From Haliotis asinina (taxonomy: Eukaryota; Mollusca; Gastropoda; Lepetellida; Haliotidae): 64,000 nt of DNA. Below the pieces are notes generated by a model that was not told where the DNA came from, searched no databases, and saw only the letters and a list, made by a program, of their open reading frames with translations. The DNA lies in NCBI RefSeq assembly GCF_037392515.1, contig NC_090291.1, positions 41,523,501 through 41,587,500 on the forward strand, written 5' to 3'. The position numbers were made by a program, and so were the translations under genes. This document shows positions 4,324 through 48,075 of this stretch, piece after piece. Every line of letters starts with the position of its first letter. Position 1 is the first letter of the stretch.

Positions 4324-4391
4324 TGTGAGTTTAGTTTCACGACACACTCGGCAATATCCCAGCCATATATAGGCAGTCTCTAGATAATCCT
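4324..4391 (-). repeat. 5'-truncated copy of repeat family C (tail only)
   Basis: The sequence begins gtgtgagtttagtttcacg and continues with ggcaatatcccagccatat. This is the reverse complement of the shared 3' end of family C and of the SINEs here (atattgc...cgtaaaactaaactcactcac). Only about 70 bp remain. It ends about 10 bp before the left border of the 2.9-kb array. Confidence 0.6.
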
Positions 4392-5222
4392 CTCTGAACT
4401 AGTTACTATACAGGTTTATGGGAAAATATTTAGTGTTGTGTAATCTGTATGTCTGCTTGCTTGCGGGTGTTGGTGTGCATCTGTGTATATTTGTGTAAAG
4501 AACCCTTCTGCTTTCCTCTGGGACTACAATAATCAGAAGCTGCAATAAATATCAATAGACATTTGGTCATAAAATATGTTATTATCAAAGTACAATGTCG
4601 AGTCTTGTAGGAAAGCTGTCAAACTTTACTCAGAACTATATGTTACTGACTCCAAACTCCATTCAAGTAAGGGACTATATTCTCCCATGTATCTGCCGGG
4701 CCATGGTGAAAGGTTGGAGTACTTAACTGTCTGAGACCATGTGAGAGGACATCGGCTTCCATGATCATATACTTTTCGCCAGACTCTTGAAACAAACAAA
4801 CAACTGCAGTTGGGAAGAAACTTGGCTGTCTTGAGAACGAATCAGTGCATTACTGGAGATGTGTATAAATCCTTAGCCTAAATGTCATTGCATGGGTGCA
4901 TTGAGACACACGTAATTGTTGTATGGGAACATGCACACGTCTTGAACTATCAACTGTTTGGGCCTTTTGAATCAGTTATGATAGTCTGAGATCAAATGGG
5001 ACTTTCTATATTTGGGGACAGAAATAGTCTACTTGCTTGCTTCAACGTCTTTATAAGAGTATCTCTTGGATTCTCTTGGCCTTTGTGGGCAATGAATCCT
5101 ATGTGATTATAGTATGCAGGACAATGTTATCAGATAGTTTCCTTACATTCTTTTCAGTCTTGAATCTGATTGTAGCGGAGGGAAAAGACAAAGAAAGATG
5201 AAATTGAAACATAACTCAATGC

Positions 5223-5228
5223 TTTATT
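5223..5228 (-). promoter_or_regulatory. Polyadenylation signal AATAAA of copy 1
   Basis: The plus strand reads tttatt, so the minus strand has AATAAA, starting 113 nt past the stop codon of copy 1. A T-rich stretch follows on the minus strand, as expected of a cleavage and polyadenylation region. The same hexamer sits at the same offset, 118 to 113 bases below the first base of the stop triplet, in all 15 copies. Confidence 0.75.
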
Positions 5229-5340
5229 GGTATTCAATGAGGAATATACAGACTGGGTGGATACATCATAGTGAGTGGAATGGACCAATATGATGTCAAA
5301 TGTCCAGCATCTGATGGCAATATGATGATCCTGGGATGTT

Positions 5341-5837
5341 TTACCCGTGGTGTCCGCCTCCATGACCACCACCACCTCCATGGCCTCCACCTCCATGGCC
5401 ACCACCTCCATGACCTCCTCCATGGCCGCCACCTCCATGGCCTCCGCCTCCGTGACCACCACCTCCGTGACCACCACCACCACCTCCATGGCCTCCACCA
5501 CCTCCATGGCCTCCACCACCACCATGGCCTCCACCACCACCATGGCCGCCACCACCACCATGGCCAGCAAGGGCGGACCCAAGGAAGACTGTCAATAATG
5601 GAAAGAAGTCAAGCGATTCATAAGCGATCACACAAGATACCATTCCTACAGAGGAAATTCCTTTTCCAACCCTGATAAACGTTTGGAGCAATGTAGAAAC
5701 TGTGCCAATCATAAGGTTGTCAGTGTACTTGCCGAGCCACTTCACAAACTCTGCAATACTAGTAACGTTGTTCCTTACAAAGTTTAGAAAGCAGACTTAC
5801 CCAAGACTACAACCACTGCAACGTTAAGAAGGCGCAT
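5341..5837 (-). CDS. Secreted Gly/His-only peptide gene, copy 1 of 15
   Basis: Two coding exons join exactly. Exon 1 is 5801-5837 (ATG at 5837, 37 nt, donor GTAAGT). Exon 2 is 5341-5588 (248 nt, acceptor TTGACAG, stop TAA). Together they make 285 nt, or 94 residues. Residues 1-20 (MRLLNVAV...FLGSALA) form a textbook signal peptide with an Ala-Leu-Ala cleavage site. The remaining 74 residues are 59 Gly and 15 His, in blocks of three to six Gly separated by single His, ending HHG. Calculated mature mass is about 5.4 kDa, with no Cys, no aromatics and no acidic residues. The ATG has A at -3. A TATA box lies at 5903-5911. I do not recognise a named orthologue. Gly/His-rich secreted proteins known elsewhere bind Zn or Cu (worm jaw proteins), form sclerotised tissue (squid beak) or are antimicrobial (plant shepherins). 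Any of these roles would be inference here. Confidence 0.85.
5589..5800 (-). other. Intron of copy 1 (212 nt)
   Basis: Minus-strand intron starting GTAAGT at 5800 and ending in a pyrimidine-rich tract and TTGACAG at 5589. It separates the signal-peptide start from the rest and lies in phase 1. It also explains why an apparent open frame extending upstream of the Gly/His region is not coding: that extension is intron and would start at GTG. Confidence 0.8.
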
Positions 5838-5902
5838 CTTGCCAGCTACGTTTACCCAGTAGAGAATAAACGATGTGAATGTTGCTTTTGTAAGTCACTA
5901 CA

Positions 5903-5911
5903 CCTTATATA
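5903..5911 (-). promoter_or_regulatory. TATA box TATATAAGG of copy 1
   Basis: The minus strand reads TATATAAGG, with its 5' end 74 nt upstream of the ATG at 5837. Initiation about 30 nt downstream would give a short 5' UTR of about 45 nt. The element is present in every copy at the same offset (one base closer in copies 3 and 7), so each gene has its own core promoter. Confidence 0.75.
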
Positions 5912-8126
5912 CCTGTGGTACAGGAAATCAGGATGTTGAATCTAATTGCCCACACTGGACGATTTGGCGAAAATTAAATTCCAAGATGACTTTTTACACT
6001 CTTAGATCGTGAAAGATGAATCCTATTATGTAATAACACACGGGACGATCTCACTTGCTTCTCTATATGATGCATATCTTCCTGTATAAATAGAAAAATA
6101 CATCTGTGAAAATTTGTGACCAGGCCTGGCAACCCGTGGCTCAGCTCACTGCTGAAAAGCATGATAGAGTTGATGGTTGATGGAATGCAATTGCAGCTAC
6201 AGACGGCTGGTGATAAATACGAATGGGGAGAGAATTCATGAAACAAAGAGTAAATGTCTAACTGCAGTATTTCGTTGAATGCAGATAGTAATTAGAATAA
6301 GCAACCATTACTATGAGTCAAGAATCATTATCAAGGTATGTCAAATCCATGTTTTAAGGTAAACTCAATGGCAAGCTACTTATTTATAATCAAAGTTAAT
6401 GTGAAGTGGTGGGATTTTTCTCTAGCTTGAGTTATAATTTCAAAACTTCAATACCTACCTTTTGTGATTTCAAAGTCTCAATATATACTGCGATGAGAGC
6501 ATCCTCTTTGTTCTAATTGTAGCAAATCCTAAATTACGCCTCAAACGGGTCAACACTTACAACAATGCGGGTACTGATTACATGGACAAGAAATCCATCT
6601 GATTTTCTCAAGAACTAGTGCTATGAATATTTTGTCTTGATATGGACACGGGAGTAAAGAGAGCATTGGTTGGCTACCCCTTCCTCAGTAAATGTGTTGA
6701 TAGCAAACTAGAGCAGGAAGAGAGGTGGGGAGTTATGCTCTGTTGCTTCACATGCTTTGGTGTCCTGACATGTAACAATTAAAGGAGTGGGATACATGAT
6801 GTCAACCTAACTGCAATCAGAGTGTGTTAATGCAAGTGTTAGAGTGCATGCGTGAGTCTGTACGTTGGCATATGCCTGTGTTTCCATACAGGTTCCACAC
6901 TGAATCAGAATCACATACTCCTTGAGAGAGTACCGTTTGTAAACAAGTGAAGAGACAAAGACGTGTGACAGCTTTGACTGGAGGAAAACGTGTAAGATGT
7001 TTAAGGTTTTTAAAAAGCACATCCATTCAGTAATTAAAACCTGACCACGATTTTACCTATTTAGAGCTGTCATTTTTATCACCATGACCTATACTTATGT
7101 GTGTACAGATATGTTCAAGTAGGTGACATTTGGTGTGGAACTGAGCTTGATGTGTTTAGCTTCCTGTGCTCCGAAAGTTAGCCGACCAAGTTGGCCAGAA
7201 ATTGTATTTTCTTGTAGTTTAAAGGATAGGCTGTATCCATGTGTACAGGGAATAGTTGTTGATAGCCTGGGTGTTTATCTAAAAGCAATAAGGTTACTAT
7301 AGAAGTCTATGGGAAAACATATAGTGTTGTGTAATCTGTATGTCTGCTTGCTTGCGTGTGTTGGTGTGCATCTGTGTATATTTGTGTAAAGAACCCTTCT
7401 GCTTTCCTCTGGGACTACAATAATCAGAAACTGCAATAAATATCAATAGACATTTGGTCATAAAATATGTTATTTTCAAAGTACAATGTCGAATGTTGTA
7501 GGAAAGCTGTCAAACTTTACTCAGAACTATATGTTACTGACTCCAAACTCCATTCAAGTAAGGGACTATATTCTCCCATGTATCTGCCGGGCCATGGTGA
7601 AAGGTTGGAGTACTTAACAACTGTCTGAGACCATGTGAGAGGAAATCGGCTTCCATGATCATATACTTTTCGCCAGACTCTTGAAACAAACAAACAACTG
7701 CAGTTGGGAAGAAACTTGGCTGTCTTGAGAACGAATCAGTGCATTACTGGAGATGTGTATAAATCCTTAGCCTAAATGTCATTGCATGGGTGCATTGAGA
7801 CACACGTAATTGTTGTATGGGAACATGCACACGTCTTGAACTGTCAACTGTTTGGGCCTTTTGAATCAGTTATGATAGTCTGAGATCAAATAGGACTTTC
7901 TATATTTGGGGACAGAAATAGTCTACTTGCTTGCTTCAATGTCTTTATAAGAGTACTTGTATCTCTTGGATTCTCTTGGCCTTTGTGGGCAATGAATCCT
8001 ATGTGATTATAGTATGCAGGACAATGTTATCAGATAGCTTCCTTACATTCTTTTCAGTCAGTCTTGAATCTGATTGTAACGGAAAGAAAAGACAAAGAAA
8101 GATCAAATTAAAATATAACTCAATGC
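5912..8126. other. Array spacer (representative: between copies 1 and 2)
   Basis: About 2.2 kb separates the promoter of one copy from the poly(A) signal of the next. I find no second gene in it. Two open frames recur in most spacers: 90 codons on minus just upstream of the promoter, and 88 codons on plus antisense to the 3' end. Both begin at TTG, not ATG, and show no recognisable domain. The spacer is nearly as conserved as the gene, which fits recent duplication and homogenisation better than a coding role. Confidence 0.6.
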
Positions 8127-8244
8127 TTTATTGGTATTCAGTGAGGAATATACAGACTGGGTGGATACATCATAGTGAGTGGAATGGACCAATATGATAT
8201 CAAATGTCCAGCATCTGATGGCAATATGATGATCCTGGGATGTT

Positions 8245-8741
8245 TTACCCGTGGTGTCCGCCTCCATGACCACCACCACCTCCATGGCCTCCACCTCCAT
8301 GGCCACCACCTCCATGACCTCCTCCATGGCCGCCACCTCCATGGCCTCCGCCTCCGTGACCACCACCTCCGTGACCACCACCACCACCTCCATGGCCTCC
8401 ACCACCTCCATGGCCTCCACCACCACCATGGCCTCCACCACCACCATGGCCGCCACCACCACCATGGCCAGCAAGGGCGGACCCAAGGAAGACTGTCAAT
8501 AATGGAAAGAAGTCAAGCGATTCATAAGCGATCACACAAGATACCATTCCTACAGAGGAAATTCCTTTTCCAACCCTGATAAACGTTTGGAGCAATGTAG
8601 AAACTGTGCCAATCATAAGGTTGTCAGTGTACTTGCCGAGCCACTTCACAAACTCTGCAATACTAGTAACGTTGTTCCTTACAAAGTTTAGAAAGCAGAC
8701 TTACCCAAGACTACAACCACTGCAACGTTAAGAAGGCGCAT
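8245..8741 (-). CDS. Secreted Gly/His-only peptide gene, copy 2 of 15
   Basis: Exon 1 is 8705-8741 and exon 2 is 8245-8492, with TATA box at 8807-8815 and poly(A) signal at 8127-8132. The encoded 94-residue preprotein is identical to copy 1, including the same pattern of silent codons in exon 2. The 3' UTR differs from copy 1 by a few bases. Confidence 0.85.
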
Positions 8742-11148
8742 CTTGCCAGCTACGTTTATCCAGTAGAGAATAAACGATGTGAATGTTGCTTTTGTAAGTC
8801 ACTACACCTTATATACCTGTGGTACAGGAAATCAGGATGTTGAATCTAATTGCCCACACTGGACGATTTGGCGAAAATTAAATTCCAAGATGACTTTTTA
8901 CACTCTTAGATCGTGAAAGATGAATCCTATTATGTAATAACACACGGGACGATCTCACTTGCTTCTCTATATGATGCATATCTTCCTGTATAAATAGAAA
9001 AATACATCTGTGAAAATTTGTGACCAGGCCTGGCAACCCGTGGCTCAGCTCACTGCTGAAAAGCATGATAGAGTTGATGGTTGATGGAATGCAATTGCAG
9101 CTACAGACGGCTGGTGATAAATACGAATGGGGAGAGAATTCATGAAACAAAGAGTAAATGTCTAACTGCAGTATTTCGTTGAATGCAGATAGTAATTAGA
9201 ATAAGCAACCATTACTATGAGTCAAGAATCTTTATCAAGGTATGTCAAATCCATGTTTTAAGGTAAACTCAATGGCAAGCTACTTATTTATAATCAAAGT
9301 TAATGTGAAGTGGTGGGATTTTTCTCTAGCTTGAGTTATAATTTCAAAACTTCAATACCTACCTTTTGTGATATCAAAGTCTCAATATATACTGCGATGA
9401 GAGCATCCTCTTTGTTCTAATTGTAGCAAATCCTAAATTACGCCTCAAACGGGTCAACACTTACAACAATGCGGGTACTGATTACATGGACAAGAAATCC
9501 ATCTGATTTTCTCAAGAACTAGAGCTATGAATATTTTGTCTTGATATGGACACGGGAGTAAAGAGAGCATTGGTTGGCTACCCCTTCCTCAGTACATGTG
9601 TTGATAGCAAACTAGAGCAGGAAGAGAGGTGGGGAGTTATGCTCTGTTGCTTCACATGCTTTGGTGTCCTGACATGTAACAATTAAAGGAGTGGGATACA
9701 TGACGTCAACCTAACTGCAATCAGAGTGTGTTAATGCAAGTGTTAGAGTGCATGCGTGAGTCTGTACGTTGGCATATGCCTGTGTTTCCATACAGGTTCC
9801 ACACTGAATCAGAATCACATACTCCTTGAGAGAGTACCGTTTGTAAACAAGTGAAGAGACAAAGACGTGTGACAGCTTTGACTGGAGGAAAACGTGTAAG
9901 ATGTTTAAGGTTTTTAAAAAGCACATCCATTCAGTAATTAAAACCTGACCACGATTTTACCTATTTAGAGCTGTCATTTTTATCACCATGACCTATACTT
10001 ATGTGTGTACAGATATGTTCAAGTAGGTGACATTTGGTGTGGAACTGAGCTTGATGTGTTTAGCTTCCTGTGCTCCGAAAGTTAGCCGGCCAAGTTGGCC
10101 AGAAATTGTATTTTCTTGTAGTTTAAAGGATAGGCTGTATCCATGTGTACAGGGAATAGTTGTTGATAGCCTGGATGTTTATCTAAAAGCTATAAGGTTA
10201 CTATAGAAGTCTATGGGAAAACATATAGTGTTGTGTAATCTGTATGTCTGCTTGCTTGCGTGTGTTGGTGTGCATCTGTGTATATTTGTGTAAAGAACCC
10301 TTCTGCTTTCCTCTGGGACTACAATAATCAGAAACTGCAATAAATATCAATAGACATTTGGTCATAAAATATGTTATTATCAAAGTACAATGTCGAATCT
10401 TGTAGGAAAGCTGTCAAACTTTACTCAGAACTATATGTTACTGACTCCAAACTCCATTCAAGTAAGGGACTATATTCTCCCATGTATCTGCCGGGCCATG
10501 GTGAAAGGTTGGAGTACTTAACAACTGTCTGAGACCATGTGAGAGGAAATCGGCTTCCATGATCATATACTTTTCGCCAGACTCTTGAAACAAACAAACA
10601 ACTGCAGTTGGGAAGAAACTTGGCTGTCTTGAGAACGAATCAGTGCATTACTGGAGATGTGTATAAATCCTTAGCCTAAATGTCATTGCATGGGTGCATT
10701 GAGACACACGTAATTGTTGTATGGGAACATGCACACGTCTTGAACTGTCAACTGTTTGGGCCTTTTGAATCAGTTATGATAGTCTGAGATCAAATAGGAC
10801 TTTCTATATTTGGGGACAGAAATGGTCTACTTGCTTGCTTCAATGTCTTTATAAGAGTACTTGTATCTCTTGGATTCTCTTGGCCTTTGTGGGCAATGAA
10901 TCCTATGTGATTATAGTATGCAGGACAATGTTATCAGATAGTTTCCTTACATTCTTTTCAGTCAGTCTTGAATCTGATTGTAACGGAGGGAAAAGACAAA
11001 GAAAGATCAAACTAAAATATAACTCAATGCTTTATTGGTATTCAATGAGGAATATACAGACTGGGTGGATACATCATAGTGAGTGGAATGGACCAATATG
11101 ATATCAAATGTCCAGCATCTGATGGCAATATGATGATCCTGGGATGTT

Positions 11149-11645
11149 TTACCCGTGGTGTCCGCCTCCATGACCACCACCACCTCCATGGCCTCCACCT
11201 CCATGGCCACCACCTCCATGACCTCCTCCATGGCCGCCACCTCCATGGCCTCCGCCTCCGTGACCACCACCTCCGTGACCACCACCACCACCTCCATGGC
11301 CTCCACCACCTCCATGGCCTCCACCACCTCCATGGCCTCCACCACCACCATGGCCGCCACCACCACCATGGCCAGCAAGGGCGGACCCAAGGAAGACTGT
11401 CAATAATGGAAAGAAGTCAAGCGATTCATAAGCGATCACACAAGATACCATTCCTACAGAGGAAATTCCTTTTTCAACCCTGATAAACGTTTGGAGCAAT
11501 GTAGAAACGGTGCCAATCATAAGGTTGTCAGTGTACTTGCCGAGCCACTTCACAAACTCTGCAATACTAGTAACGTTGTTCCTTACAAAGTTTAGAAAGC
11601 AGACTTACCCAAGACTACAACCACTGCAACGTTAAGAAGGCGCAT
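11149..11645 (-). CDS. Secreted Gly/His-only peptide gene, copy 3 of 15
   Basis: Exon 1 is 11609-11645 and exon 2 is 11149-11396, with TATA box at 11710-11718 and poly(A) signal at 11031-11036. The protein is identical to copy 1, but exon 2 has a silent change in one Gly block. The intron has aaacggtgcc where neighbours have aaactgtgcc. The 5' UTR has gtgcatgttgctttttaag, one base shorter. These intron and 5' marks are shared only with copy 7. Confidence 0.85.
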
Positions 11646-14051: not shown

Positions 14052-14548
14052 TTACCCGTGGTGTCCGCCTCCATGACCACCACCACCTCCATGGCCTCCA
14101 CCTCCATGGCCACCACCTCCATGACCTCCTCCATGGCCGCCACCTCCATGGCCTCCGCCTCCGTGACCACCACCTCCGTGACCACCACCACCACCTCCAT
14201 GGCCTCCACCACCTCCATGGCCTCCACCACCTCCATGGCCTCCACCACCACCATGGCCTCCACCACCACCATGGCCAGCAAGGGCGGACCCAAGGAAGAC
14301 TGTCAATAATGGAAAGAAGTCAAGCGATTCATAAGCGATCACACAAGATACCATTCCTACAGAGGAAATTCCTTTTCCAACCCTGATAAACGTTTGGAGC
14401 AATGTAGAAACTGTGCCAATCATAAGGTTGTCAGTGTACTTGCCGAGCCACTTCACAAACTCTGCAATACTAGTAACGTTGTTCCTTACAAAGTTTAGAA
14501 AGCAGACTTACCCAAGACTACAACCACTGCAACGTTAAGAAGGCGCAT
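14052..14548 (-). CDS. Secreted Gly/His-only peptide gene, copy 4 of 15
   Basis: Exon 1 is 14512-14548 and exon 2 is 14052-14299, with TATA box at 14614-14622 and poly(A) signal at 13934-13939. The protein is identical to copy 1 through a different set of silent codons, a pattern shared with copies 5 and 7. The following spacer is 16 bp short, with the deletion near 15583. Confidence 0.85.
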
Positions 14549-16939: not shown

Positions 16940-17436
16940 TTACCCGTGGTGTCCGCCTCCATGACCACCACCACCTCCATGGCCTCCACCTCCATGGCCA
17001 CCACCTCCATGACCTCCTCCATGGCCGCCACCTCCATGGCCTCCGCCTCCGTGACCACCACCTCCGTGACCACCACCACCACCTCCATGGCCTCCACCAC
17101 CTCCATGGCCTCCACCACCTCCATGGCCTCCACCACCACCATGGCCTCCACCACCACCATGGCCAGCAAGGGCGGACCCAAGGAAGACTGTCAATAATGG
17201 AAAGAAGTCAAGCGATTCATAAGCGATCACACAAGATACCATTCCTACAGAGGAAATTCCTTTTCCAACCCTGATAAACGTTTGGAGCAATGTAGAAACT
17301 GTGCCAATCATAAGGTTGTCAGTGTACTTGCCGAGCCACTTCACAAACTCTGCAATACTAGTAACGTTGTTCCTTACAAAGTTTAGAAAGCAGACTTACC
17401 CAAGACTACAACCACTGCAACGTTAAGAAGGCGCAT
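16940..17436 (-). CDS. Secreted Gly/His-only peptide gene, copy 5 of 15
   Basis: Exon 1 is 17400-17436 and exon 2 is 16940-17187, with TATA box at 17502-17510 and poly(A) signal at 16822-16827. The exon 2 codon pattern matches copy 4 and the protein is identical to copy 1. All splice sites and the stop codon are intact. Confidence 0.85.
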
Positions 17437-19844: not shown

Positions 19845-20341
19845 TTACCCGTGGTGTCCGCCTCCATGACCACCACCACCTCCATGGCCTCCACCTCCAT
19901 GGCCACCACCTCCATGACCTCCTCCATGGCCGCCACCTCCATGGCCTCCGCCTCCGTGACCACCACCTCCGTGACCACCACCACCACCTCCATGGCCTCC
20001 ACCACCTCCATGGCCTCCACCACCACCATGGCCTCCACCACCACCATGGCCGCCACCACCACCATGGCCAGCAAGGGCGGACCCAAGGAAGACTGTCAAT
20101 AATGGAAAGAAGTCAAGCGATTCATAAGCGATCACACAAGATACCATTCCTACAGAGGAAATTCCTTTTCCAACCCTGATAAACGTTTGGAGCAATGTAG
20201 AAACTGTGCCAATCATAAGGTTGTCAGTGTACTTGCCGAGCCACTTCACAAACTCTGCAATACTAGTAGCGTTGTTCCTTACAAAGTTTAGAAAGCAGAC
20301 TTACCCAAGACTACAACCACTGCAACGTTAAGAAGGCGCAT
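19845..20341 (-). CDS. Secreted Gly/His-only peptide gene, copy 6 of 15
   Basis: Exon 1 is 20305-20341 and exon 2 is 19845-20092, with TATA box at 20407-20415 and poly(A) signal at 19727-19732. Exon 2 carries the silent pattern of copies 1 and 2, although copies 3 to 5 lie between. That is a sign of sequence exchange along the array. The protein is unchanged. Confidence 0.85.
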
Positions 20342-22749: not shown

Positions 22750-23246
22750 TTACCCGTGGTGTCCGCCTCCATGACCACCACCACCTCCATGGCCTCCACC
22801 TCCATGGCCACCACCTCCATGACCTCCTCCATGGCCGCCACCTCCATGGCCTCCGCCTCCGTGACCACCACCTCCGTGACCACCACCACCACCTCCATGG
22901 CCTCCACCACCTCCATGGCCTCCACCACCTCCATGGCCTCCACCACCACCATGGCCTCCACCACCACCATGGCCAGCAAGGGCGGACCCAAGGAAGACTG
23001 TCAATAATGGAAAGAAGTCAAGCGATTCATAAGCGATCACACAAGATACCATTCCTACAGAGGAAATTCCTTTTCCAACCCTGATAAACGTTTGGAGCAA
23101 TGTAGAAACGGTGCCAATCATAAGGTTGTCAGTGTACTTGCCGAGCCACTTCACAAACTCTGCAATACTAGTAGCGTTGTTCCTTACAAAGTTTAGAAAG
23201 CAGACTTACCCAAGACTACAACCACTGCAACGTTAAGAAGGCGCAT
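22750..23246 (-). CDS. Secreted Gly/His-only peptide gene, copy 7 of 15
   Basis: Exon 1 is 23210-23246 and exon 2 is 22750-22997, with TATA box at 23311-23319 and poly(A) signal at 22632-22637. Exon 2 has the copy 4/5 codon pattern, while the intron, 5' UTR and upstream flank carry the marks of copy 3. A switch point therefore falls between exon 2 and the middle of the intron. The protein is identical to copy 1. Confidence 0.85.
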
Positions 23247-25651
23247 CTTGCCAGCTACGTTTATCCAGTAGAGAATAAACGATGTGCATGTTGCTTTTTA
23301 AGTCACTACACCTTATATACCTGTGGTACAGGAAATCAGGATGTTGAATCTAATTGCCCACACTGGACGATTTGGCGAAAATTAAATTCCAAGATGACTT
23401 TTTACACTCTTAGATCGTGAAAGATGAATCATATTATGTAATAACACACGGGACGATCTCACTTGCTTCTCTGTATGATGCATATCTTCCTGTATAAATA
23501 GAAAAATACATCTGTGAAAATTTGTGACCAGGCCTGGCAACCCGTGGCTCAGCTCACTGCTGAAAAGCATGATAGAGTTGATGGTTGATGGAATGCAATT
23601 GCAGCTACAGACGGCTGGTGATAAATACGAATGGGGAATGAATTCATGAAACAAAGAGTAAATGTCTAACTGCAGTATTTCGTTGAATGCAGATAGTAAT
23701 TAGAATAAGCAACCATTACTATAAGTCAAGAATCTTTATCAAGGTATGTCAAATCCATGTTTTAAGGTAAACTCAATGGCAAGCTACTTATTTATAATCA
23801 AAGTTAATGTGAAGTGGTGGGATTTTTCTCTAGCTTGAGTTATAATTTCAAAACTTCAATACCTACCTTTTGTGATTTCAAAGTCTCAATATATACTGCG
23901 ATGAGAGCATCCTCTTTGTTCTAATTGTAGCAAATCCTAAATTACGCCTCAAACGGGTCAACACTTACAACAATGCGGGTACTGATTACATGGACAAGAA
24001 ATCCATCTGATTTTCTCAAGAACTAATGCTATGAATATTTTGTCTTGATATGGACACGGGAGTAAAGAGAGCATTGGTTGGCTACCCCTTCCTCAGTACA
24101 TGTGTTGATAGCAAACTAGAGCAGGAAGAAAGGTGGGGAGTTATGCTCTGTTGCTTCACATGCTTTGGTGTCCTGACATGTAGCAATTAAAGGAGTGGGA
24201 TACATGACGTCAACCTAACTGCAATCAGAGTGTGTTAATGCAAGTGTTAGAGTGCATGCGTGAGTCTGTACGTTGGCATATGCCTGTGTTTCCATACAGG
24301 TTCCACACTGAATCAGAATCACATACTCCTTGAGAGAGTACCGTTTGTAAACAAGTGAAGAGACAAAGACGTGTGACAGCTTTGACTGGAGGAAAACGTG
24401 TAAGATGTTTAAGGTTTTTAAAAAGCACATCCATTCAGTAATTAAAACCTGACCACGACTTTTACCTATTTAGAGCTGTCATTTTTATCACCATGACCTA
24501 TACTTATGTGTGTACAGATATGTTCAAGTAGGTGACATTTGGTGTGGAACTGAGCTTGATGTGTTTAGCTTCCTGTGCTCCGAAAGTTAGCCGGCCAAGT
24601 TGGCCAGAAATTGTATTTTCTTGTAGTTTAAAGGATAGGCTGTATCCATGTGTACAGGGAATAGTTGTTGATAGCCTGGATGTTTATCTAAAAGCTATAA
24701 GGTTACTATAGAAGTCTATGGGAAAACATATAGTGTTGTGTAATCTGTATGTCTGCTTGCTTGCGTGTGTTGGTGTGCATCTGTGTATATTTGTGTAAAG
24801 AACCCTTCTGCTTTCCTCTGGGACTACAATAATCAGAAGCTGCAATAAATATCAATAGACATTTGGTCATAAAATATGTTATTATCAAAGTACAATGTCG
24901 AATCTTGTAGGAAAGCTGTCAAACTTTACTCAGAACTATATGTTACTGACTCCAAACTCCATTCAAGTAAGGGACTATATTCTCCCATGTATCTGCCGGG
25001 CCATGGTGAAAGGTTGGAGTACTTAACAACTGTCTGAGACCATGTGAGAGGAAATCGGCTTCCATGATCATATACTTTTCATATACATATACATGAACAC
25101 ACAACTGCAGTTGGGAAGAAACTTGGCTGTCTTGAGAACGAATCAGTGCATTACTGGAGATGTGTATAAATCCTTAGCCTAAATGTCATTGCATGGGTGC
25201 ATTGAGACACACGTAATTGTTGTATGGGAACATGCACACGTCTTGAACTATCAACTGTTTGGGCCTTTTGAATCAGTTATGATAGTCTGAGATCAAATAG
25301 GACTTTCTATATTTGGGGACAGAAATGGTCTACTTGCTTGCTTCAATGTCTTTATAAGAGTACTTGTATCTCTTGGATTCTCTTGGCCTTTGTGGGCAAT
25401 GAATCCTATGTGATTATAGTATGCAGGACAATGTTATCAGATAGTTTCCTTACATTCTTTTCAGTCAGTCTTGAATCTGATTGTAACGGAGGGAAAAGAC
25501 AAAGAAAGATCAAATTAAAATATAACTCAATGCTTTATTGGTATTCAATGAGGAATATACAGACTGGGTGGATACATCATAGTGAGTGGAATGGACCAAT
25601 ATGATATCAAATGTCCAGCATCTGATGGCAATATGATGATCCTGGGATGTT

Positions 25652-26148
25652 TTACCCGTGGTGTCCGCCTCCATGACCACCACCACCTCCATGGCCTCCA
25701 CCTCCATGGCCACCACCTCCATGACCTCCTCCATGGCCGCCACCTCCATGGCCTCCGCCTCCGTGACCACCACCTCCGTGACCACCATCACCACCTCCAT
25801 GGCCTCCACCACCTCCATGGCCTCCACCACCTCCATGGCCTCCACCACCACCATGGCCTCCACCACCACCATGGCCAGCAAGGGCGGACCCAAGGAAGAC
25901 TGTCAATAATGGAAAGAAGTCAAGCGATTCATAAGCGATCACACAAGATACCATTCCTACAGAGGAAATTCCTTTTCCAACCCTGATAAACGTTTGGAGC
26001 AATGTAGAAACTGTGCCAACCATAAGGTTGTCAGTGTACTTGCCGAGCCACTTCACAAACTCTGCAATACTAGTAACGTTGTTCCTTACAAAGTTTAGAA
26101 AGCAGACTTACCCAAGACTACAACCACTGCAACGTTAAGAAGGCGCAT
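25652..26148 (-). CDS. Secreted Gly/His peptide gene, copy 8 of 15 (Gly to Asp)
   Basis: Exon 1 is 26112-26148 and exon 2 is 25652-25899, with TATA box at 26214-26222 and poly(A) signal at 25534-25539. This is the only copy with an amino acid substitution in the mature peptide. ccaccacc became ccatcacc near 25789, so one Gly of the six-Gly block is Asp. The intron also has its own variant (gccaaccat). The gene is otherwise intact. Confidence 0.85.
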
Positions 26149-28556
26149 CTTGCCAGCTACGTTTATCCAGTAGAGAATAAACGATGTGAATGTTGCTTTT
26201 GTAAGTCACTACACCTTATATACCTGTGGTACAGGAAATCAGGATGTTGAATCTAATTGCCCACACTGGACGATTTGGCGAAAATTAAATTCCAAGATGA
26301 CTTTTTACACTCTTAGATCGTGAAAGATGAATCATATTATGTAATAACACACGGGACGATCTCACTTGCTTCTCTGTATGATGCATATCTTCCTGTATAA
26401 ATAGAAAAATACATCTGTGAAAATTTGTGACCAGGCCTGGCAACCCGTGGCTCAGCTCACTGCTGAAAAGCATGATAGAGTTGATGGTTGATGGAATGCA
26501 ATTGCAGCTACAGACGGCTGGTGATAAATACGAATGGGGAGAGAATTCATGAAACAAAGAGTAAATGTCTAACTGCAGTATTTCGTTGAATGCAGATAGT
26601 AATTAGAATAAGCAACCATTACTATGAGTCAAGAATCATTATCAAGGTATGTCAAATCCATGTTTTAAGGTAAACTCAATGGCAAGCTACTTATTTATAA
26701 TCAAAGTTAATGTGAAGTGGTGGGATTTTTCTCTAGCTTGAGTTATAATTTCAAAACTTCAATACCTACCTTTTGTGATTTCAAAGTCTCAATATATACT
26801 GCGATGAGAGCATCCTCTTTGTTCTAATTGTAGCAAATCCTAAATTACGCCTCAAACGGGTCAACACTTACAACAATGCGGGTACTGATTACATGGACAA
26901 GAAATCCATCTGATTTTCTCAAGAACTAATGCTATGAATATTTTGTCTTGATATGGACACGGGAGTAAAGAGAGCATTGGTTGGCTACCCCTTCCTCAGT
27001 ACATGTGTTGATAGCAAACTAGAGCAGGAAGAAAGGTGGGGAGTTATGCTCTGTTGCTTCACATGCTTTGGTGTCCTGACATGTAGCAATTAAAGGAGTG
27101 GGATACATGACGTCAACCTAACTGCAATCAGAGTGTGTTAATGCAAGTGTTAGAGTGCATGCGTGAGTCTGTAAGTTGGCATATGCCTGTGTTTCCATAC
27201 AGGTTCCACACTGAATCAGAATCACATACTCCTTGAGAGAGTACCGTTTGTAAACAAGTGAAGAGACAAAGACGTGTGACAGCTTTGACTGGAGGAAAAC
27301 GTGTAAGATGTTTAAGGTTTTTAAAAAGCACATCCATTCAGTAATTAAAACCTGACCACGACTTTTACCTATTTAGAGCTGTCATTTTTATCACCATGAC
27401 CTATACTTATGTGTGTACAGATATGTTCAAGTAGGTGACATTTGGTGTGGAACTGAGCTTGATGTGTTTAGCTTCCTGTGCTCCCAAATTTAGCCGACCA
27501 AGTTGGCCAGAAATTGTATTTTCTTGTAGTTTAAAGGATAGGCTGTATCCATGTGTACAGGGAATAGTTGTTGATAGCCTGGATGTTTATCTAAAAGCTA
27601 TAAGGTTACTATAGAAGTCTATGGGAAAACATATAGTGTTGTGTAATCTGTATGTCTGCTTGCTTGCGTGTGTTGGTGTGCATCTGTGTATATTTGTGTA
27701 AAGAACCCTTCTGCTTTCCTCTGGGACTACAATAATCAGAAGCTGCAATAAATATCAATAGACATTTGGTCATAAAATATGTTATTATCAAAGTACAATA
27801 TCGAATCTTGTAGGAAAGCTGTCAAACTTTACTCAGAACTATATGTTACTGACTCCAAACTCCATTCAAGTAAGGGACTATATTCTCCCATGTATCTGCC
27901 GGGCCATGGTGAAAGGTTGGAGTACTTAACAACTGTCTGAGACCATGTGAGAGGAAATCGGCTTCCATGATCATATACTTTTCGCCAGACTCTTGAAACA
28001 AACAAACAACTGCAGTTGGGAAGAAACTTGGCTGTCTTGAGAACGAATCAGTGCATTACTGGAGATGTGTATAAATCCTTAGCCTAAATGTCATTGCATG
28101 GGTGCATTGAGACACACGTAATTGTTGTATGGGAACATGCACACGTCTTGAACTATCAACTGTTTGGGCCTTTTGAATCAGTTATGATAGTCTGAGATCA
28201 AATAGGACTTTCTATATTTGGGGACAGAAATGGTCTACTTGCTTGCTTCAATGTCTTTATAAGAGTACTTGTATCTCTTGGATTCTCTTGGCCTTTGTGG
28301 GCAATGAATCCTATGTGATTATAGTATGCAGGACAATGTTATCAGATAGTTTCCTTACATTCTTTTCAGTCAGTCTTGAATCTGATTGTAACGGAGGGAA
28401 AAGACAAAGAAAGATCAAATTAAAATATAACTCAATGCTTTATTGGTATTCAATGAGGAATATACAGACTGGGTGGATACATCATAGTGAGTGGAATGGA
28501 CCAATATGATATCAAATGTCCAGCATCTGATGGCAATATGATGATCCTGGGATGTT

Positions 28557-29053
28557 TTACCCGTGGTGTCCGCCTCCATGACCACCACCACCTCCATGGC
28601 CTCCACCTCCATGGCCACCACCTCCATGACCTCCTCCATGGCCGCCACCTCCATGGCCTCCGCCTCCGTGACCACCACCTCCGTGACCACCACCACCACC
28701 TCCATGGCCTCCACCACCTCCATGGCCTCCACCACCTCCATGGCCTCCACCACCACCATGGCCTCCACCACCACCATGGCCAGCAAGGGCGGACCCAAGG
28801 AAGACTGTCAATAATGGAAAGAAGTCAAGCGATTCATAAGCGATCACACAAGATACCATTCCTACAGAGGAAATTCCTTTTCCAACCCTGATAAACGTTT
28901 GGAGCAATGTAGAAACTGTGCCAATCATAAGGTTGTCAGTGTACTTGCCGAGCCACTTCACAAACTCTGCAATACTAGTAACGTTGTTCCTTACAAAGTT
29001 TAGAAAGCAGACTTACCCAAGACTACAACCACTGCAACGTTAAGAAGGCGCAT
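28557..29053 (-). CDS. Secreted Gly/His-only peptide gene, copy 9 of 15
   Basis: Exon 1 is 29017-29053 and exon 2 is 28557-28804, with TATA box at 29119-29127 and poly(A) signal at 28439-28444. It is the last copy of the left group, which has ctgggatg just past the stop and ccaatcat in the intron. The protein is identical to copy 1. Confidence 0.85.
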
Positions 29054-31461: not shown

Positions 31462-31959
31462 TTACCCGTGGTGTCCGCCTCCATGACCACCACCACCTCC
31501 ATGGCCTCCACCTCCATGGCCACCACCTCCATGACCTCCTCCATGGCCGCCACCTCCATGGCCTCCGCCTCCGTGACCACCACCTCCGTGACCACCACCA
31601 CCACCTCCATGGCCTCCACCACCTCCATGGCCTCCACCACCTCCATGGCCTCCACCACCACCATGGCCTCCACCACCACCATGGCCAGCAAGGGCGGACC
31701 CAAGGAAGACTGTCAATAATGGAAAGAAGTCAAGCGATTCATAAGCGATCACACAAGATACCATTCCTACAGAGGAAATTCCTTTTCCAAACCCTGATAA
31801 ACGTTTGGAGCAATGTAGAAACTGTGCCTATCCTAAGGTTGTCAGTGTACTTGCCGAGCCACTTCACAAACTCTGCAATACTAGTAACGTTGTTCCTTAC
31901 AAAGTTTAGAAAGCAGACTTACCCAAGACTACAACCACTGCAACGTTAAGAAGGCGCAT
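31462..31959 (-). CDS. Secreted Gly/His-only peptide gene, copy 10 of 15
   Basis: Exon 1 is 31923-31959 and exon 2 is 31462-31709, with TATA box at 32025-32033 and poly(A) signal at 31344-31349. It is the first copy of the right group, which has ctggcatg past the stop and cctatcct in the intron. The intron is 213 nt because of one extra A (ccaaaccctg), shared only with copy 11. The protein is identical to copy 1. Confidence 0.85.
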
Positions 31960-34367: not shown

Positions 34368-34865
34368 TTACCCGTGGTGTCCGCCTCCATGACCACCACC
34401 ACCTCCATGGCCTCCACCTCCATGGCCACCACCTCCATGACCTCCTCCATGGCCGCCACCTCCATGGCCTCCGCCTCCGTGACCACCACCTCCGTGACCA
34501 CCACCACCACCTCCATGGCCTCCACCACCTCCATGGCCTCCACCACCTCCATGGCCTCCACCACCACCATGGCCTCCACCACCACCATGGCCAGCAAGGG
34601 CGGACCCAAGGAAGACTGTCAATAATGGAAAGAAGTCAAGCGATTCATAAGCGATCACACAAGATACCATTCCTACAGAGGAAATTCCTTTTCCAAACCC
34701 TGATAAACGTTTGGAGCAATGTAGAAACTGTGCCTATCCTAAGGTTGTCAGTGTACTTGCCGAGCCACTTCACAAACTCTGCAATACTAGTAACGTTGTT
34801 CCTTACAAAGTTTAGAAAGCAGACTTACCCAAGACTACAACCACTGCAACGTTAAGAAGGCGCAT
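34368..34865 (-). CDS. Secreted Gly/His-only peptide gene, copy 11 of 15
   Basis: Exon 1 is 34829-34865 and exon 2 is 34368-34615, with TATA box at 34931-34939 and poly(A) signal at 34250-34255. It is nearly indistinguishable from copy 10, including the intron insertion and the ctagctacg 5' UTR variant. This points to a recent one-unit duplication. Confidence 0.85.
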
Positions 34866-37272: not shown

Positions 37273-37769
37273 TTACCCGTGGTGTCCGCCTCCATGACCA
37301 CCACCACCTCCATGGCCTCCACCTCCATGGCCACCACCTCCATGACCTCCTCCATGGCCGCCACCTCCATGGCCTCCGCCTCCGTGACCACCACCTCCGT
37401 GACCACCACCACCACCTCCATGGCCTCCACCACCTCCATGGCCTCCACCACCTCCATGGCCTCCACCACCACCATGGCCTCCACCACCACCATGGCCAGC
37501 AAGGGCGGACCCAAGGAAGACTGTCAATAATGGAAAGAAGTCAAGCGATTCATAAGCGATCACACAAGATACCATTCCTACAGAGGAAATTCCTTTTCCA
37601 ACCCTGATAAACGTTTGGAGCAATGTAGAAACTGTGCCTATCCTAAGGTTGTCAGTGTACTTGCCGAGCCACTTCACAAACTCTGCAATACTAGTAACGT
37701 TGTTCCTTACAAAGTTTAGAAAGCAGACTTACCCAAGACTACAACCACTGCAACGTTAAGAAGGCGCAT
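37273..37769 (-). CDS. Secreted Gly/His-only peptide gene, copy 12 of 15
   Basis: Exon 1 is 37733-37769 and exon 2 is 37273-37520, with TATA box at 37835-37843 and poly(A) signal at 37155-37160. The 5' UTR variant gccaactacg is shared only with copy 15. The base after the TATA region (ctgtagtacagg) is shared with copies 13 to 15. The protein is identical to copy 1. Confidence 0.85.
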
Positions 37770-40176: not shown

Positions 40177-40667
40177 TTACCCGTGGTGTCCGCCTCCATG
40201 ACCACCACCACCTCCATGGCCTCCACCTCCATGGCCACCACCTCCATGACCTCCTCCATGGCCGCCACCTCCATGGCCTCCGCCTCCGTGACCACCACCT
40301 CCGTGACCACCACCTCCATGGCCTCCACCACCTCCATGGCCTCCACCACCTCCATGGCCTCCACCACCACCATGGCCTCCACCACCACCATGGCCAGCAA
40401 GGGCGGACCCAAGGAAGACTGTCAATAATGGAAAGAAGTCAAGCGATTCATAAGCGATCACACAAGATACCATTCCTACAGAGGAAATTCCTTTTCCAAC
40501 CCTGATAAACGTTTGGAGCAATGTAGAAACGGTGCCTATCCTAAGGTTGTCAGTGTACTTGCCGAGCCACTTCACAAACTCTGCAATACTAGTAACGTTG
40601 TTCCTTACAAAGTTTAGAAAGCAGACTTACCCAAGACTACAACCACTGCAACGTTAAGAAGGCGCAT
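40177..40667 (-). CDS. Secreted Gly/His-only peptide gene, copy 13 of 15 (two Gly shorter)
   Basis: Exon 1 is 40631-40667 and exon 2 is 40177-40418 (242 nt), with TATA box at 40733-40741 and poly(A) signal at 40059-40064. An in-frame 6-bp loss turns the six-Gly block into four Gly, giving a 92-residue preprotein. The loss fits slippage in the CCACCA repeat. The intron has aaacggtgcc. All of these are shared with copy 14. Confidence 0.85.
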
Positions 40668-43074: not shown

Positions 43075-43565
43075 TTACCCGTGGTGTCCGCCTCCATGAC
43101 CACCACCACCTCCATGGCCTCCACCTCCATGGCCACCACCTCCATGACCTCCTCCATGGCCGCCACCTCCATGGCCTCCGCCTCCGTGACCACCACCTCC
43201 GTGACCACCACCTCCATGGCCTCCACCACCTCCATGGCCTCCACCACCTCCATGGCCTCCACCACCACCATGGCCTCCACCACCACCATGGCCAGCAAGG
43301 GCGGACCCAAGGAAGACTGTCAATAATGGAAAGAAGTCAAGCGATTCATAAGCGATCACACAAGATACCATTCCTACAGAGGAAATTCCTTTTCCAACCC
43401 TGATAAACGTTTGGAGCAATGTAGAAACGGTGCCTATCCTAAGGTTGTCAGTGTACTTGCCGAGCCACTTCACAAACTCTGCAATACTAGTAACGTTGTT
43501 CCTTACAAAGTTTAGAAAGCAGACTTACCCAAGACTACAACCACTGCAACGTTAAGAAGGCGCAT
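43075..43565 (-). CDS. Secreted Gly/His-only peptide gene, copy 14 of 15 (two Gly shorter)
   Basis: Exon 1 is 43529-43565 and exon 2 is 43075-43316 (242 nt), with TATA box at 43631-43639 and poly(A) signal at 42957-42962. It shares the 6-bp exon 2 deletion and flanking variants with copy 13. The two units have the same 2898-bp length, so one arose recently from the other. Confidence 0.85.
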
Positions 43566-45972
43566 CTTGCTAGCTACGTTTATCCAGTAGAGAATAAACG
43601 ATGTGAATGTTGCTTTTGTAAGTCACTACACCTTATATACCTGTAGTACAGGAAATCAGGATGTTGAATCTAATTGCCCACACTGGACGATTTGGCGAAA
43701 ATTAAATTCCAAGATGACTTTTTACACTCTTAGATCGTGAAAGATGAATCATATTATGTAATAACACACGGGACGATCTCACTTGCTTCTCTATATGATG
43801 CATATCTTCCTGTATAAATAGAAAAATACATCTGTGAAAATTTGTGACCAGGCCTGGCAACCCGTGGCTCAGCTCACTGCTGAAAAGCATGATAGAGTTG
43901 ATGGTTGATGGAATGCAATTGCAGCTACAGACGGCTGGTGATAAATACGAATGGGGAGAGAATTCATGAAACAAAGAGTAAATGTCTAACTGCAGTATTT
44001 CGTTGAATGCAGATAGTAATTAGAATAAGCAACCATTACTATGAGTCAAGAATCTTTATCAAGGTATGTCAAATCCATGTTTTAAGGTAAACTCAATGGA
44101 AAGCTACTTACTTATAATCAAAGTTAATATGAAGTGGTGGGATTTTTCTCTAGCTTGAGTTATAATTTCAAAACTTCAATACCTACCTTTTGTGATTTCA
44201 AAGTCTCAATATATACTGCGATGAGAGCATCCTCTTTGTTCTAATTGTAGCAAATCCTAAATTACGCCTCAAACGGGTCAACACTTACAACAATGCGGGT
44301 ACTGATTACATGAACAAGAAATCCATCTGATTTTCTCAAGAACTAATACTATGAATATTTTGTCTTGATATGGACACGGGAGTAAAGAGAGCATTGGTTG
44401 GCTACCCCTTCCTCAGTACATGTGTTGATACCAAACTAGAGCAGGAAGAAAGGTGGGGAGTTATGCTCTGTTGCTTCACATGCTTTGGTGTCCTGACATG
44501 TAACAATTAAAGGAGTGGGATACATGACGTCAACCTAACTGCAATCAGAGTGTGTTAATGCAAGTGTTAGAGTGCATGCGTGAGTCTGTACGTTGGCATA
44601 TGCCTGTGTTTCCATACAGGTTCCACACTGAATCAGAATCACATACTCCTTGAGAGAGTACCGTTTGTAAACAAGTGAAGAGACAAAGACGTGTGACAGC
44701 TTTGACTGGAGGAAAACGTGTAAGATGTTTAAGGTTTTTGAAAAGCACATCCATTCAGTAATTAAAACCTGACCACGATTTTACCTATTTAGAGCTGTCA
44801 TTTTTATCACCATGACCTATACTTATGTGTGTACAGATATGTTCAAGTAGGTGACATTTGGTGTGGAACTGAGCTTGATGTGTTTAGCTTCCTGTGCTCC
44901 GAAAGTTAGCCGACCAAGTTGGCCAGAAATTGTATTTTCTTGTAGTTTAAAGGATAGGCTGTATCCATGTGTACAGGGAATAGTTGTTGATAGCCTGGAT
45001 GTTTATCTAAAAGCTATAAGGTTACTATAGAAGTCTATGGGAAAACATATAGTGTTGTGTAATCTGTATGTCTGCTTGCTTGCGTGTGTTGGTGTGCATC
45101 TGTGTATATTTGTGTAAAGAACCCTTCTGCCTTCCTCTGGGACTACAATAATCAGAAGCTGCAATAAATATCAATAGACATTTGGTCATAAAATATGTTA
45201 TTATCAAAGTACAATGTCGAATCTTGTAGGAAAGCTGTCAAACTTTACTCAGAACTATATGTTACTGACTCCAAACTCCATTCAAGTAAGGGACTATATT
45301 CTCCCATGTATCTGCCGGGCCATGGTGAAAGGTTGGAGTACTTAACAACTGTCTGAGACCATGTGAGCGGAAATCGGCTTCCATGATCATATACTTTTCG
45401 CCAGACTCTTGAAACAAACACACAACTGCAGTTGGGAAGAAACTTGGCTGTCTTGAGAACGAATCAGTGCATTACTGGAGATGTGTATAAATCCTTAGCC
45501 TAAATGTCATTGCATGGGTGCATTGAGACACACGTAATTGTTGTATGGGAACATGCACACGTCTTGAACTATCAACTGTTTGGGCCTTTTGAATCAGTTA
45601 TGATAGTCTGAGATCAAATGGGACTTTCTATATTTGGGGACAGAAATAGTCTACTTGCTTGCTTCAATGTCTTTATAAGAGTACTTGTATCTCTTGGATT
45701 CTCTTGGCCTTTGTGGGCAATGAATTCTATGTGATTATAGTATGCAGGACAATGTTATCAGATAGTTTCCTTACATTCTTTTCAGTCAGTCTTGAATCTG
45801 ATTGTAACGGAGGGAAAAGACAAAGAAAGATCAAATTAAAATATAACTCAATGCTTTATTGGTATTCAGTGAGGAATATACAGACTGGGTGGATACATCA
45901 TAGTGAGTGGAATGGACCAATATGATATCAAATGTCCAGCATCTGATGGCAATATGATGATCCTGGCATGTT

Positions 45973-46469
45973 TTACCCGTGGTGTCCGCCTCCATGACCA
46001 CCACCACCTCCATGGCCTCCACCTCCATGGCCACCACCTCCATGACCTCCTCCATGGCCGCCACCTCCATGGCCTCCGCCTCCGTGACCACCACCTCCGT
46101 GACCACCACCACCACCTCCATGGCCTCCACCACCTCCATGGCCTCCACCACCACCATGGCCTCCACCACCACCATGGCCTCCACCACCACCATGGCCAGC
46201 AAGGGCGGACCCAAGGAAGACTGTCAATAATGGAAAGAAGTCAAGCGATTCATAAGCGATCACACAAGATACCATTCCTACAGAGGAAATTCCTTTTCCA
46301 ACCCTGATAGACGTTTGGAGCAATGTAGAAACTGTGCCTATCCTAAGGTTGTCAGTGTACTTGCCGAGCCACTTCACAAACTCTGCAATACTAGTAACGT
46401 TGTTCCTTACAAAGTTTAGAAAGCAGACTTACCCAAGACTACAACCACTGCAACGTTAAGAAGGCGCAT
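45973..46469 (-). CDS. Secreted Gly/His-only peptide gene, copy 15 of 15
   Basis: Exon 1 is 46433-46469 and exon 2 is 45973-46220, with TATA box at 46535-46543 and poly(A) signal at 45855-45860. The protein is the full 94 residues and identical to copy 1. Exon 2 has a silent pattern of its own, with three ccaccaccaccatgg blocks. The 5' UTR shares gccaactacg with copy 12. This is the last gene before the array ends. Confidence 0.85.
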
Positions 46470-47436
46470 CTTGCCAACTACGTTTATCCAGTAGAGAATA
46501 AACGATGTGAATGTTGCTTTTGTAAGTCACTACACCTTATATACCTGTAGTACAGGAAATCAGGATGTTGAATCTAATTGCCCACACTGGACGATTTGGC
46601 GAAAATTAAATTCCAAGATGACTTTTTACACTCTTAGATCGTGAAAGATGAATCATATTATGTAATAACACACGGGACGATCTCACTTGCTTCTCTATAT
46701 GATGCATATCTTCCTGTATAAATAGAAAAATACATCTGTGAAAATTTGTGACCAGGCCTGGCAACCCGTGGCTCAGCTCACTGCTGAAAAGCATGATAGA
46801 GTTGATGGTTGATGGAATGCAATTGCAGCTACAGACGGCTGGTGATAAATACGAATGGGGAGAGAATTCATGAAACAAAGAGTAAATGTCTAACTGCAGT
46901 ATTTCGTTGAATGCAGATAGTAATTAGAATAAGCAACCATTACTATGAGTCAAGAATCTTTATCAAGGTATGTCAAATCCATGTTTTAAGGTAAACTCAA
47001 TGGAAAGCTACTTATTTATAATCAAAGTTAATGTGAAGTGGTGGGATTTTTCTCTAGCTTGAGTTATAATTTCAAAACTTCAATACCTACCTTTTGTGAT
47101 TTCAAAGTCTCAATATATACTGCGATGAGAGCATCCTCTTTGTTCTAATTGTAGCAAATCCTAAATTACGCCTCAAACGGGTCAACACTTACAACAATGC
47201 GGGTACTGATTACATGAACAAGAAATCCATCTGATTTTCTCAAGAACTAATACTATGAATATTTTGTCTTGATATGGACACGGGAGTAAAGAGAGCATTG
47301 GTTGGCTACCCCTTCCTCAGTACATGTGTTGATAGCAAACTAGAGCAGGAAGAAAGGTGGGGAGTTATGCTCTGTTGCTTCACATGCTTTGGTGTCCTGA
47401 CATGTAACAATTAAAGGAGTGGGATACATGACGTCA

Positions 47437-47592
47437 TCCCTGTAGCTATTTCTTTTGAAATGGGCTATTTGCAATCAGGGTGTGTTAATGCAAGTGTTCG
47501 TGTGCACGCACGCAGGTGCCTGTGAACGTGTGAGTCTTCGCGTTGACGTATGCGTGATTCCACTACAGATTCCACTACAGATTCCACTACAG
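47437..47592. repeat. Decayed stub of the 2.9-kb unit at the right array border
   Basis: After a replaced stretch of about 35 bp, homology to the unit resumes in diverged form: gcaatcagggtgtgttaatg against the unit's gcaatcagagtgtgttaatg. It continues through gtgtgagtcttcgcgttgacg to the counterpart of the unit's tttccatacaggttcc. It appears older than any complete unit and probably marks the original flank. Confidence 0.6.
47557..47592. repeat. Three tandem 12-bp repeats (attccactacag)
   Basis: Three perfect copies of attccactacag lie end to end. The position corresponds to a single tttccatacagg in the array units, so this is a local expansion inside the decayed stub. Confidence 0.8.
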
Positions 47593-47990: not shown

Positions 47991-48075
47991 GCTGTGAAGC
48001 CTAGTAGTTAAAGTCATTCTGAATATACGGGTTCGATTCCCCACATAGAATCGGGTTCGATTCCAGACCAGTACA
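47991..48075 (+). mobile_element. Degenerate tRNA-SINE head with doubled B box
   Basis: The phrase agcctagtagttaaag matches the A-box half of the tRNA-derived SINE seen elsewhere here. The B-box phrase gggttcgattcc occurs twice, 24 bp apart. The rest of the SINE body is not recognisable. Confidence 0.5.

Follow-up and report, generated by a model that had tools for sequence, protein, structure and literature searches.

In a 64,000-nucleotide stretch of the Haliotis asinina genome (RefSeq assembly GCF_037392515.1, contig NC_090291.1, positions 41,523,501 to 41,587,500 of the forward strand; hereafter the window), positions 4402-47509 are occupied by a tandem array of a predicted gene for a secreted peptide composed almost entirely of glycine (Gly) and histidine (His). 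When unit 1 (4402-7305) was compared with the window, as assembled, by blastn, 15 head-to-tail units of about 2.9 kb each were found, and the identity of unit 1 to the 14 other units was 96.7-98.5%. The units start at 4402, 7293, 10197, 13100, 15988, 18893, 21798 and 24702 (copies 1 to 8) and at 27605, 30510, 33416, 36321, 39225, 42123 and 45021 (copies 9 to 15). Copy 15 is partial at the right end, where its match stops at unit position 2450, which is window position 47509. An original prediction, made from the DNA letters, of a 15-copy tandem array of about 2.9-kb units was thus borne out by blastn; its left bound at 4402 is that of unit 1, while its right bound at 47436 fell short of the match, which extends to 47509. 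The right edge is ragged, with a gapped and diverged end to the blastn match. By eye, gapped and diverged similarity runs on at this edge within 47436-47592, ahead of a perfect tandem repeat of 12 bp (GATTCCACTACA x 3.1) at 47556-47592, and at the left edge patchy similarity continues for about 20 nucleotides (nt) to the left of 4402. No diverged extra copies were found in the flanks when the unit and three unit parts were searched against both of them (blastn, word size 7, expectation value (E) up to 0.01).

On the minus strand, every one of the 15 copies has, in order, the TATA box TATATAAG, an ATG, a 37-nt exon 1, a GTAAGT donor, a TGACAG acceptor, a TAA stop and an AATAAA, which agrees with the order of signals that had been claimed for each unit. 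In copy 1 the TATA box (TATATAAG) lies at 5904-5911, the 37-nt coding part of exon 1, which starts the leader and is invariant across the 15 copies, at 5801-5837, the intron (GTAAGT...TGACAG) at 5589-5800, the coding part of exon 2 with the stop at 5341-5588, and the poly(A) signal AATAAA at 5223-5228. The intron is in phase 1 and interrupts the leader; it is 213 nt long in copies 10 and 11 and 212 nt in the other 13. From ATG to stop, also on the minus strand, the genes of the further copies lie at 8245-8741 (copy 2), 11149-11645 (copy 3), 14052-14548 (copy 4), 16940-17436 (copy 5), 19845-20341 (copy 6), 22750-23246 (copy 7), 25652-26148 (copy 8), 28557-29053 (copy 9), 31462-31959 (copy 10), 34368-34865 (copy 11), 37273-37769 (copy 12), 40177-40667 (copy 13), 43075-43565 (copy 14) and 45973-46469 (copy 15). 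Copy 13 carries a 6-nt in-frame deletion that is shared by copy 14, whose unit is almost identical to that of copy 13, and copy 15 is an edge copy with a more diverged unit.

The joined exons encode 94 residues in 13 copies and 92 residues in copies 13 and 14. The precursor is identical in 12 of the 15 copies and consists of a leader ending in ALA, then 59 Gly and 15 His. In the product of copy 8, residue 50 is Asp instead of Gly, and the array has no other amino acid replacement; the products of copies 13 and 14 have 57 Gly and 15 His, with two Gly missing in frame. The claim that the peptide is made only of Gly and His is correct for 14 copies and incorrect for copy 8 with its one Asp, and the count of 59 Gly and 15 His given with it applies to 12 copies and not to copies 8, 13 and 14. 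The leader, MRLLNVAVVVVLVFLGSALA, contains a hydrophobic core (Kyte-Doolittle mean of 3.1 over the best 12 residues) and an A-x-A before Gly, with GHGG following; by this hydropathy and A-x-A, it has the look of a signal peptide. With cleavage after residue 20, the mature peptide of copy 1 would be encoded at 5344-5565 on the minus strand.

The His residues of the mature peptide are mostly three to six Gly apart, make up 20 mol % (15 of 74), and end the chain as HHG. Acidic and aromatic residues, Cys, Ser, Thr, Lys and Arg are absent in 14 of the 15 copies (copy 8 has its one Asp), and without Asn, Ser, Thr or Cys the peptide offers no usual glycosylation site or disulphide. As a polymer of Gly and His, it is not expected to fold. 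Assuming cleavage after residue 20, the predicted average masses are 5441.13 Da (12 copies), 5499.17 Da (copy 8) and 5327.03 Da (copies 13 and 14), in a gene ratio of 12:1:2. The computed net charge, for which a His pKa of 6.5 was assumed, goes from +13.6 at pH 5.5 to -0.2 at pH 8.1.

Several features suggest that this frame is coding. All 74 mature codons of copy 1 are GGN or CAY, and its 35 departures from GGT/CAT are every one in the third position; the 15 His-led blocks comprise 14 distinct DNA sequences, which differ by length, third positions or both. Between copies, 3 of 285 coding columns are variable versus 100 of 2647 columns elsewhere (Fisher p 0.016), and two of the three coding sites are silent. 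The sole coding indel is 6 nt long and in frame, and the intron indel is 1 nt. No site varies in exon 1 or in the part of exon 2 that encodes the leader, though these are short stretches. An exon-1-like motif (ATG, 24-90 nt open, GTRAGT, 10-residue hydropathy of at least 3.0; thresholds chosen after the gene was known) occurs 15 times on the minus strand of the array, these matches being copies of one gene and not independent, and has 0 occurrences on the array plus strand and on both strands of 1-4380 and 47511-64000. Among the six frames over the mature region, the Gly/His frame is the only one limited to two kinds of residue (in 14 of 15 copies; copy 8, with its Asp, has three), while the others use 3 to 7. 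Two plus-strand and two further minus-strand open frames were considered and rejected: they use 5 to 7 residue kinds, and the changes that are silent for Gly/His replace residues there. In copy 8, a stop interrupts one of the two minus-strand frames. The remaining plus-strand frame, which reads mostly Pro and would also leave these changes silent, was likewise rejected, with 4 stops in each of the 15 copies.

Three points weigh against this evidence for coding. The 35 third-position changes are not independent, as the blocks were duplicated from one another, and their count restates that only GGN and CAY codons occur. The intercopy test (p 0.016) is weak, given that the copies are related by descent and that copy 15 lacks its right end. 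Over the mature region, 4 of the other 5 frames are free of stops in 14 or more of the 15 copies, and open reading frames (ORFs) in other frames over the repeat reach 185 residues; since low-complexity DNA easily stays open, open frames by themselves prove little. The gene model could be wrong, in that the unit is a non-coding satellite whose GC-rich minisatellite is open by chance, or in that translation begins at a start within the intron. Those open frames favour the satellite version, against which stand the exclusive use of GGN and CAY codons in copy 1, the in-frame indel, and the preservation of TATA box, donor, acceptor and AATAAA in every one of the 15 copies. We consider a wrong gene model, in either version, very unlikely. 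Taken together, it is very probable that each unit holds a real gene for a secreted Gly/His peptide, as predicted, and the original prediction of an intact gene of the spliced, secreted type gains support from the intact anatomy of all 15 copies and from the signs of coding constraint.

The in-intron start (copy 1: 5643, MVSCVIAYES... to the same ALA) is open without splicing in 15 of 15 copies. It is further favoured by the 77 nt of intron adjoining exon 2 (5589-5665 and equivalents), which are invariant in the 15 copies, while the 5' part of the intron has seven variable sites plus the indel. This invariant 3' part coincides with the open, in-frame alternative leader (MVSC...). On the other hand, the in-intron leader is less hydrophobic than the spliced one (best-12 mean of 1.9 versus 3.1), and no TATA-like string was found upstream of its start inside the copy 1 intron. 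A frameshift test of the in-intron start does not discriminate, the 1-base insertion of copies 10 and 11 falling upstream of it. With the alternative start open in every copy, the predicted splice is graded as probable. Both start models yield the same mature peptide, and the Gly/His claim is thus independent of the splice.

To look for relatives, about 5.8 billion proteins were searched, and the 7993 candidates sharing most words with the query, at 0.55 to 1.75 times its length, were scored. This gave 99 matches at E up to 1, the best at 1.9e-4. The leader was, by eye, absent from the 26 of these 99 matches that were examined, which look like unrelated Gly-rich proteins, and GHGGGG runs are common to unrelated-looking proteins of several kinds of organism. 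Scores to be expected at this database size were obtained locally: E 4e-25 for the exact peptide, 3e-23 for the copy 13 form, 3e-17 for the form from the in-intron start, and 4e-7 for an invented, shortened variant. The exact Gly/His protein was not among the 99 matches, despite its expected E of about 4e-25. A search with the leader (residues 1-40) gave three matches (E 1.1, 1.8 and 2.6), which were judged unrelated by eye and rejected. Pfam returned 0 families for the peptide at E up to 1.

By comparison, a neighbouring gene is present in the database. A multi-exon gene for a SLC7 b(0,+)-type amino acid transporter occupies 54731-63998 on the plus strand and runs off the right end of the window. 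For one database protein of 457 residues (P0100), 420 of the first 421 residues were found in 15-residue words of the window plus frames; since the match covers the first 421 residues and not all 457, the transporter gene extends beyond the right end. Proteins of H. cracherodii and H. rubra, two from each, are the next-best SLC7 matches. With the neighbouring gene in the database and the peptide missing from the matches, the simplest explanation is that the peptide gene is not annotated. It thus seems, from these searches, that the Gly/His gene is unannotated, although a longer fused gene model or a far diverged orthologue could escape the length filter or the candidate scoring. The expectation that annotation would easily miss such a gene fits the absence of the protein from the matches to about 5.8 billion proteins. 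Elsewhere in the window, frames within 1-2400 resemble by eye reverse-transcriptase and RNase H fragments of a non-long-terminal-repeat retrotransposon (four of these frames had no convincing Pfam match), and repeated translated strings at about 56816-57007, 58672-58899, 60152-60298 and 63641-63817 suggest, also by eye, a dispersed and possibly tRNA-derived short element. At gathering scores, Rfam gave no match in the window, and ARAGORN found no tRNA there. A bacterial-type promoter scan gave 3 hits versus a shuffle mean of 1.8 (standard deviation 1.3), a promoter type of little meaning here.

In an alignment of the 15 copies, the mean pairwise divergence by substitutions was 0.86%, and the farther apart two copies lie, the more they diverge (Spearman 0.66, a value reached in 0 of 2000 permutations). 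The edge copies had the highest mean divergence, 1.31% with 19 singletons for copy 1 and 1.15% with 9 singletons for copy 15. Copies 13/14 and 4/5 form near-identical pairs. Copy 8 (24702-27604), an inner copy, has a mean divergence of 1.07% and 13 singletons, more than its neighbours, and may be escaping homogenisation. Such a pattern is typically left by unequal crossing-over and conversion, and by it the locus is a concerted tandem multigene array. Unequal crossing-over with homogenisation explains the sameness of the copies, so that selection for dosage is not required. The intactness of all 15 copies suggests that they are not decaying, which is compatible with both homogenisation and dosage selection. 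Selection for dosage, which the original prediction tied to strong demand for a structural or metal-coordinating secretion and which may have acted here, has good precedent in the flounder antifreeze arrays, where twelve near-identical 11.2-kb repeats were described and gene dosage rises with latitude (PMC9122973). The flounder type I arrays are also alike in that their small peptides are of low complexity and their tandem repeats are near-identical, having diverged little within the array (PMC9122973); unlike the abalone array, they encode Ala-rich ice-binding helices, in a fish, with two genes in each 11.2-kb repeat.

The composition of the peptide points to a possible function. It is dominated by Gly and His (59 and 15 of 74 residues in 12 of 15 copies), as is the shepherin type of mature peptide. 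Given that the interior of secretory granules is acidic and that the pH of seawater is close to 8, release should strip the peptide of its charge and free the imidazoles for metals. We propose that the 5.4-kDa mature peptide would be made in bulk by a secretory epithelium, such as that of the mantle edge, foot or mucus gland, and would be stored dissolved in acidic granules with its His side chains charged (about +14 at pH 5.5). Upon release into seawater (about pH 8), where its net charge is near 0, it would lose this charge; the uncharged imidazoles could then coordinate Zn or another metal, and the peptide would assemble into a gel, fibre or coating. The tandem copies would raise output.

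Annelid jaw proteins, which carry other residues such as Tyr/DOPA (3,4-dihydroxyphenylalanine), and shepherin I, an antimicrobial peptide of Capsella bursa-pastoris, provide precedents for parts of this scheme. Once Zn is bound, shepherin I (19 Gly, 8 His, 1 Tyr) assembles into fibrils, and its Zn and Cu complexes are mildly turbid at pH 7.4 (PMC10698721). It resembles the abalone peptide in its small size, Gly/His composition and regularly spaced His, and differs in that it is a plant peptide of 28 residues with one Tyr and 28.6% His versus 20% (PMC10698721). No homology to the shepherin type, precursor included, was recognised (best E 1.9e-4; leader best E 1.1; shepherin itself left unaligned). 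Gly and His likewise dominate the Nereis jaw protein, in which His makes up 27 mol %, Zn is bound by three His on average and His-Zn serves hardness, and the Glycera jaw protein uses His for Cu (PMC6477608). The abalone peptide, with 20 mol % His versus 27 in the Nereis protein, is not part of an annelid jaw.

On the precedents of shepherin I and the Nereis protein, an assembling secretion appears the most likely function, with a Zn-dependent defence peptide as its first rival. A structural or assembling secretion has, in our view, about an even chance of being the function, and given such a secretion a metal or pH trigger is likely. The overall reading that we favour, a concerted array for bulk secretion that would assemble on pH rise or metal binding, we likewise place near the balance point. 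We more tentatively suggest a two-letter biopolymer, produced in bulk by a dedicated array, with Gly as spacers and His as stickers, which granule acidity would keep soluble and which seawater pH and trace metals would set, so that one side-chain chemistry would do all the assembling. Three points count against the assembling secretion. Without Tyr, Cys or Lys, the mature peptide cannot crosslink itself by the usual routes. Shepherin I forms fibrils with Zn only and none with Cu (PMC10698721), which weakens the case for a general metal trigger relative to that for a Zn trigger. No homologue was recognised, and the function is read from composition alone, a property that converges easily.

The rivals to this reading are not mutually exclusive in the probabilities that we attach to them. 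The first, a shepherin-like, Zn-dependent antimicrobial or antifouling peptide of mucus or haemolymph, whose metal-bound fibrils or acid cationic form would harm microbes and whose copies would raise the dose, is possible and somewhat unlikely. Defence families often diversify, whereas here the protein is nearly identical among the copies. The mature peptide is also without Lys or Arg and almost uncharged at seawater pH, and neither the protein nor the leader search recognised homology to a known peptide. On the side of defence, the composition is closest to that of shepherin I, whose fibrils and antifungal action need Zn (PMC10698721), and the mucus of the snail Cornu aspersum is reported to contain a Gly-rich peptide that has a single GHGGGG run (PMC11206429). 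Plant Gly-rich proteins (PF07172, for example AT2G05440, P0023) have a leader with GGHGG runs further on; they contain other residues, and their likeness to the abalone peptide, which has no Pfam match, is compositional.

Alternatively, the product could be a silk-like, Gly-rich passive filler of shell matrix or periostracum that makes no use of metal, like shematrins or Has-tsfgr1, an alternative that overlaps the assembling secretion in place and not in mechanism and that we consider improbable. H. asinina itself has other short secreted Gly-rich genes of the shell field. One of them, Has-tsfgr1, combines a signal of 17 residues with Gly-Leu-Tyr repeats (PMC2034539), and the mantle also expresses two silk-like genes (PMC4944945). 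Has-tsfgr1 and the shematrins resemble the abalone peptide as short secreted Gly-repeat proteins, and the peptide shares with the shematrins the Gly repeats and a signal peptide, here predicted from hydropathy and A-x-A. In contrast to the Tyr repeats and Tyr-ended C terminus of shematrins, the 15 copies have no Tyr and end in HHG; Has-tsfgr1 for its part has Gly-Leu-Tyr repeats ending in GYKGY and no His design, and no array is reported in the accessible part of its description (PMC2034539). Known shell proteins, as far as these sources describe them, use Tyr, Leu, Ala, Asn, Gln or Met, and a passive filler would leave 15 His without any other side chain unexplained. No such peptide was seen in the H. 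asinina shell proteome in the accessible part of that report, an absence of little weight given the use of trypsin and a 10 kDa membrane (PMC2989941). An egg-coat or other reproductive secretion (jelly, vitelline layer or sperm package) is very improbable: abalone reproductive proteins with repeats and concerted evolution are known, which counts for it, while there is no sequence link and the mature peptide lacks Asn, Ser, Thr and Cys.

If the assembling secretion is real, there are reasons why it would have been passed over. In the work on the H. asinina shell proteome, proteins were digested with trypsin and the acid-soluble part was concentrated over the 10 kDa membrane (PMC2989941). The H. 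laevigata shell proteome was also obtained by trypsin digestion, and absent trypsin sites were named as one cause of missed proteins (PMC6003135). The mature abalone peptide is without Lys or Arg, and tryptic proteomics would therefore miss it. As part of the same tentative reading, the two-letter biopolymer could have been overlooked through its tiny first exon, low-complexity filtering and the lack of a trypsin site. In three H. asinina studies, as far as their accessible text extends, neither 'glycine' nor 'histidine' occurs in the main text of one (PMC1676022), a second describes the Gly-rich Has-tsfgr1 and has no 'histidine' (PMC2034539), and a third deals with the two other silk-like genes, its single mention of histidine being for byssus (PMC4944945). 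No paper on an abalone Gly/His peptide or its array was found among the matches listed from open-access titles and abstract openings, with the subscription literature mostly uncovered. If expressed, the peptide would be among the simplest natural His-based secreted peptides, and the species already serves research on shell formation. It points to a class of products hidden from tryptic proteomics, and the array would offer a clean system for the copy-number evolution of a secreted peptide.

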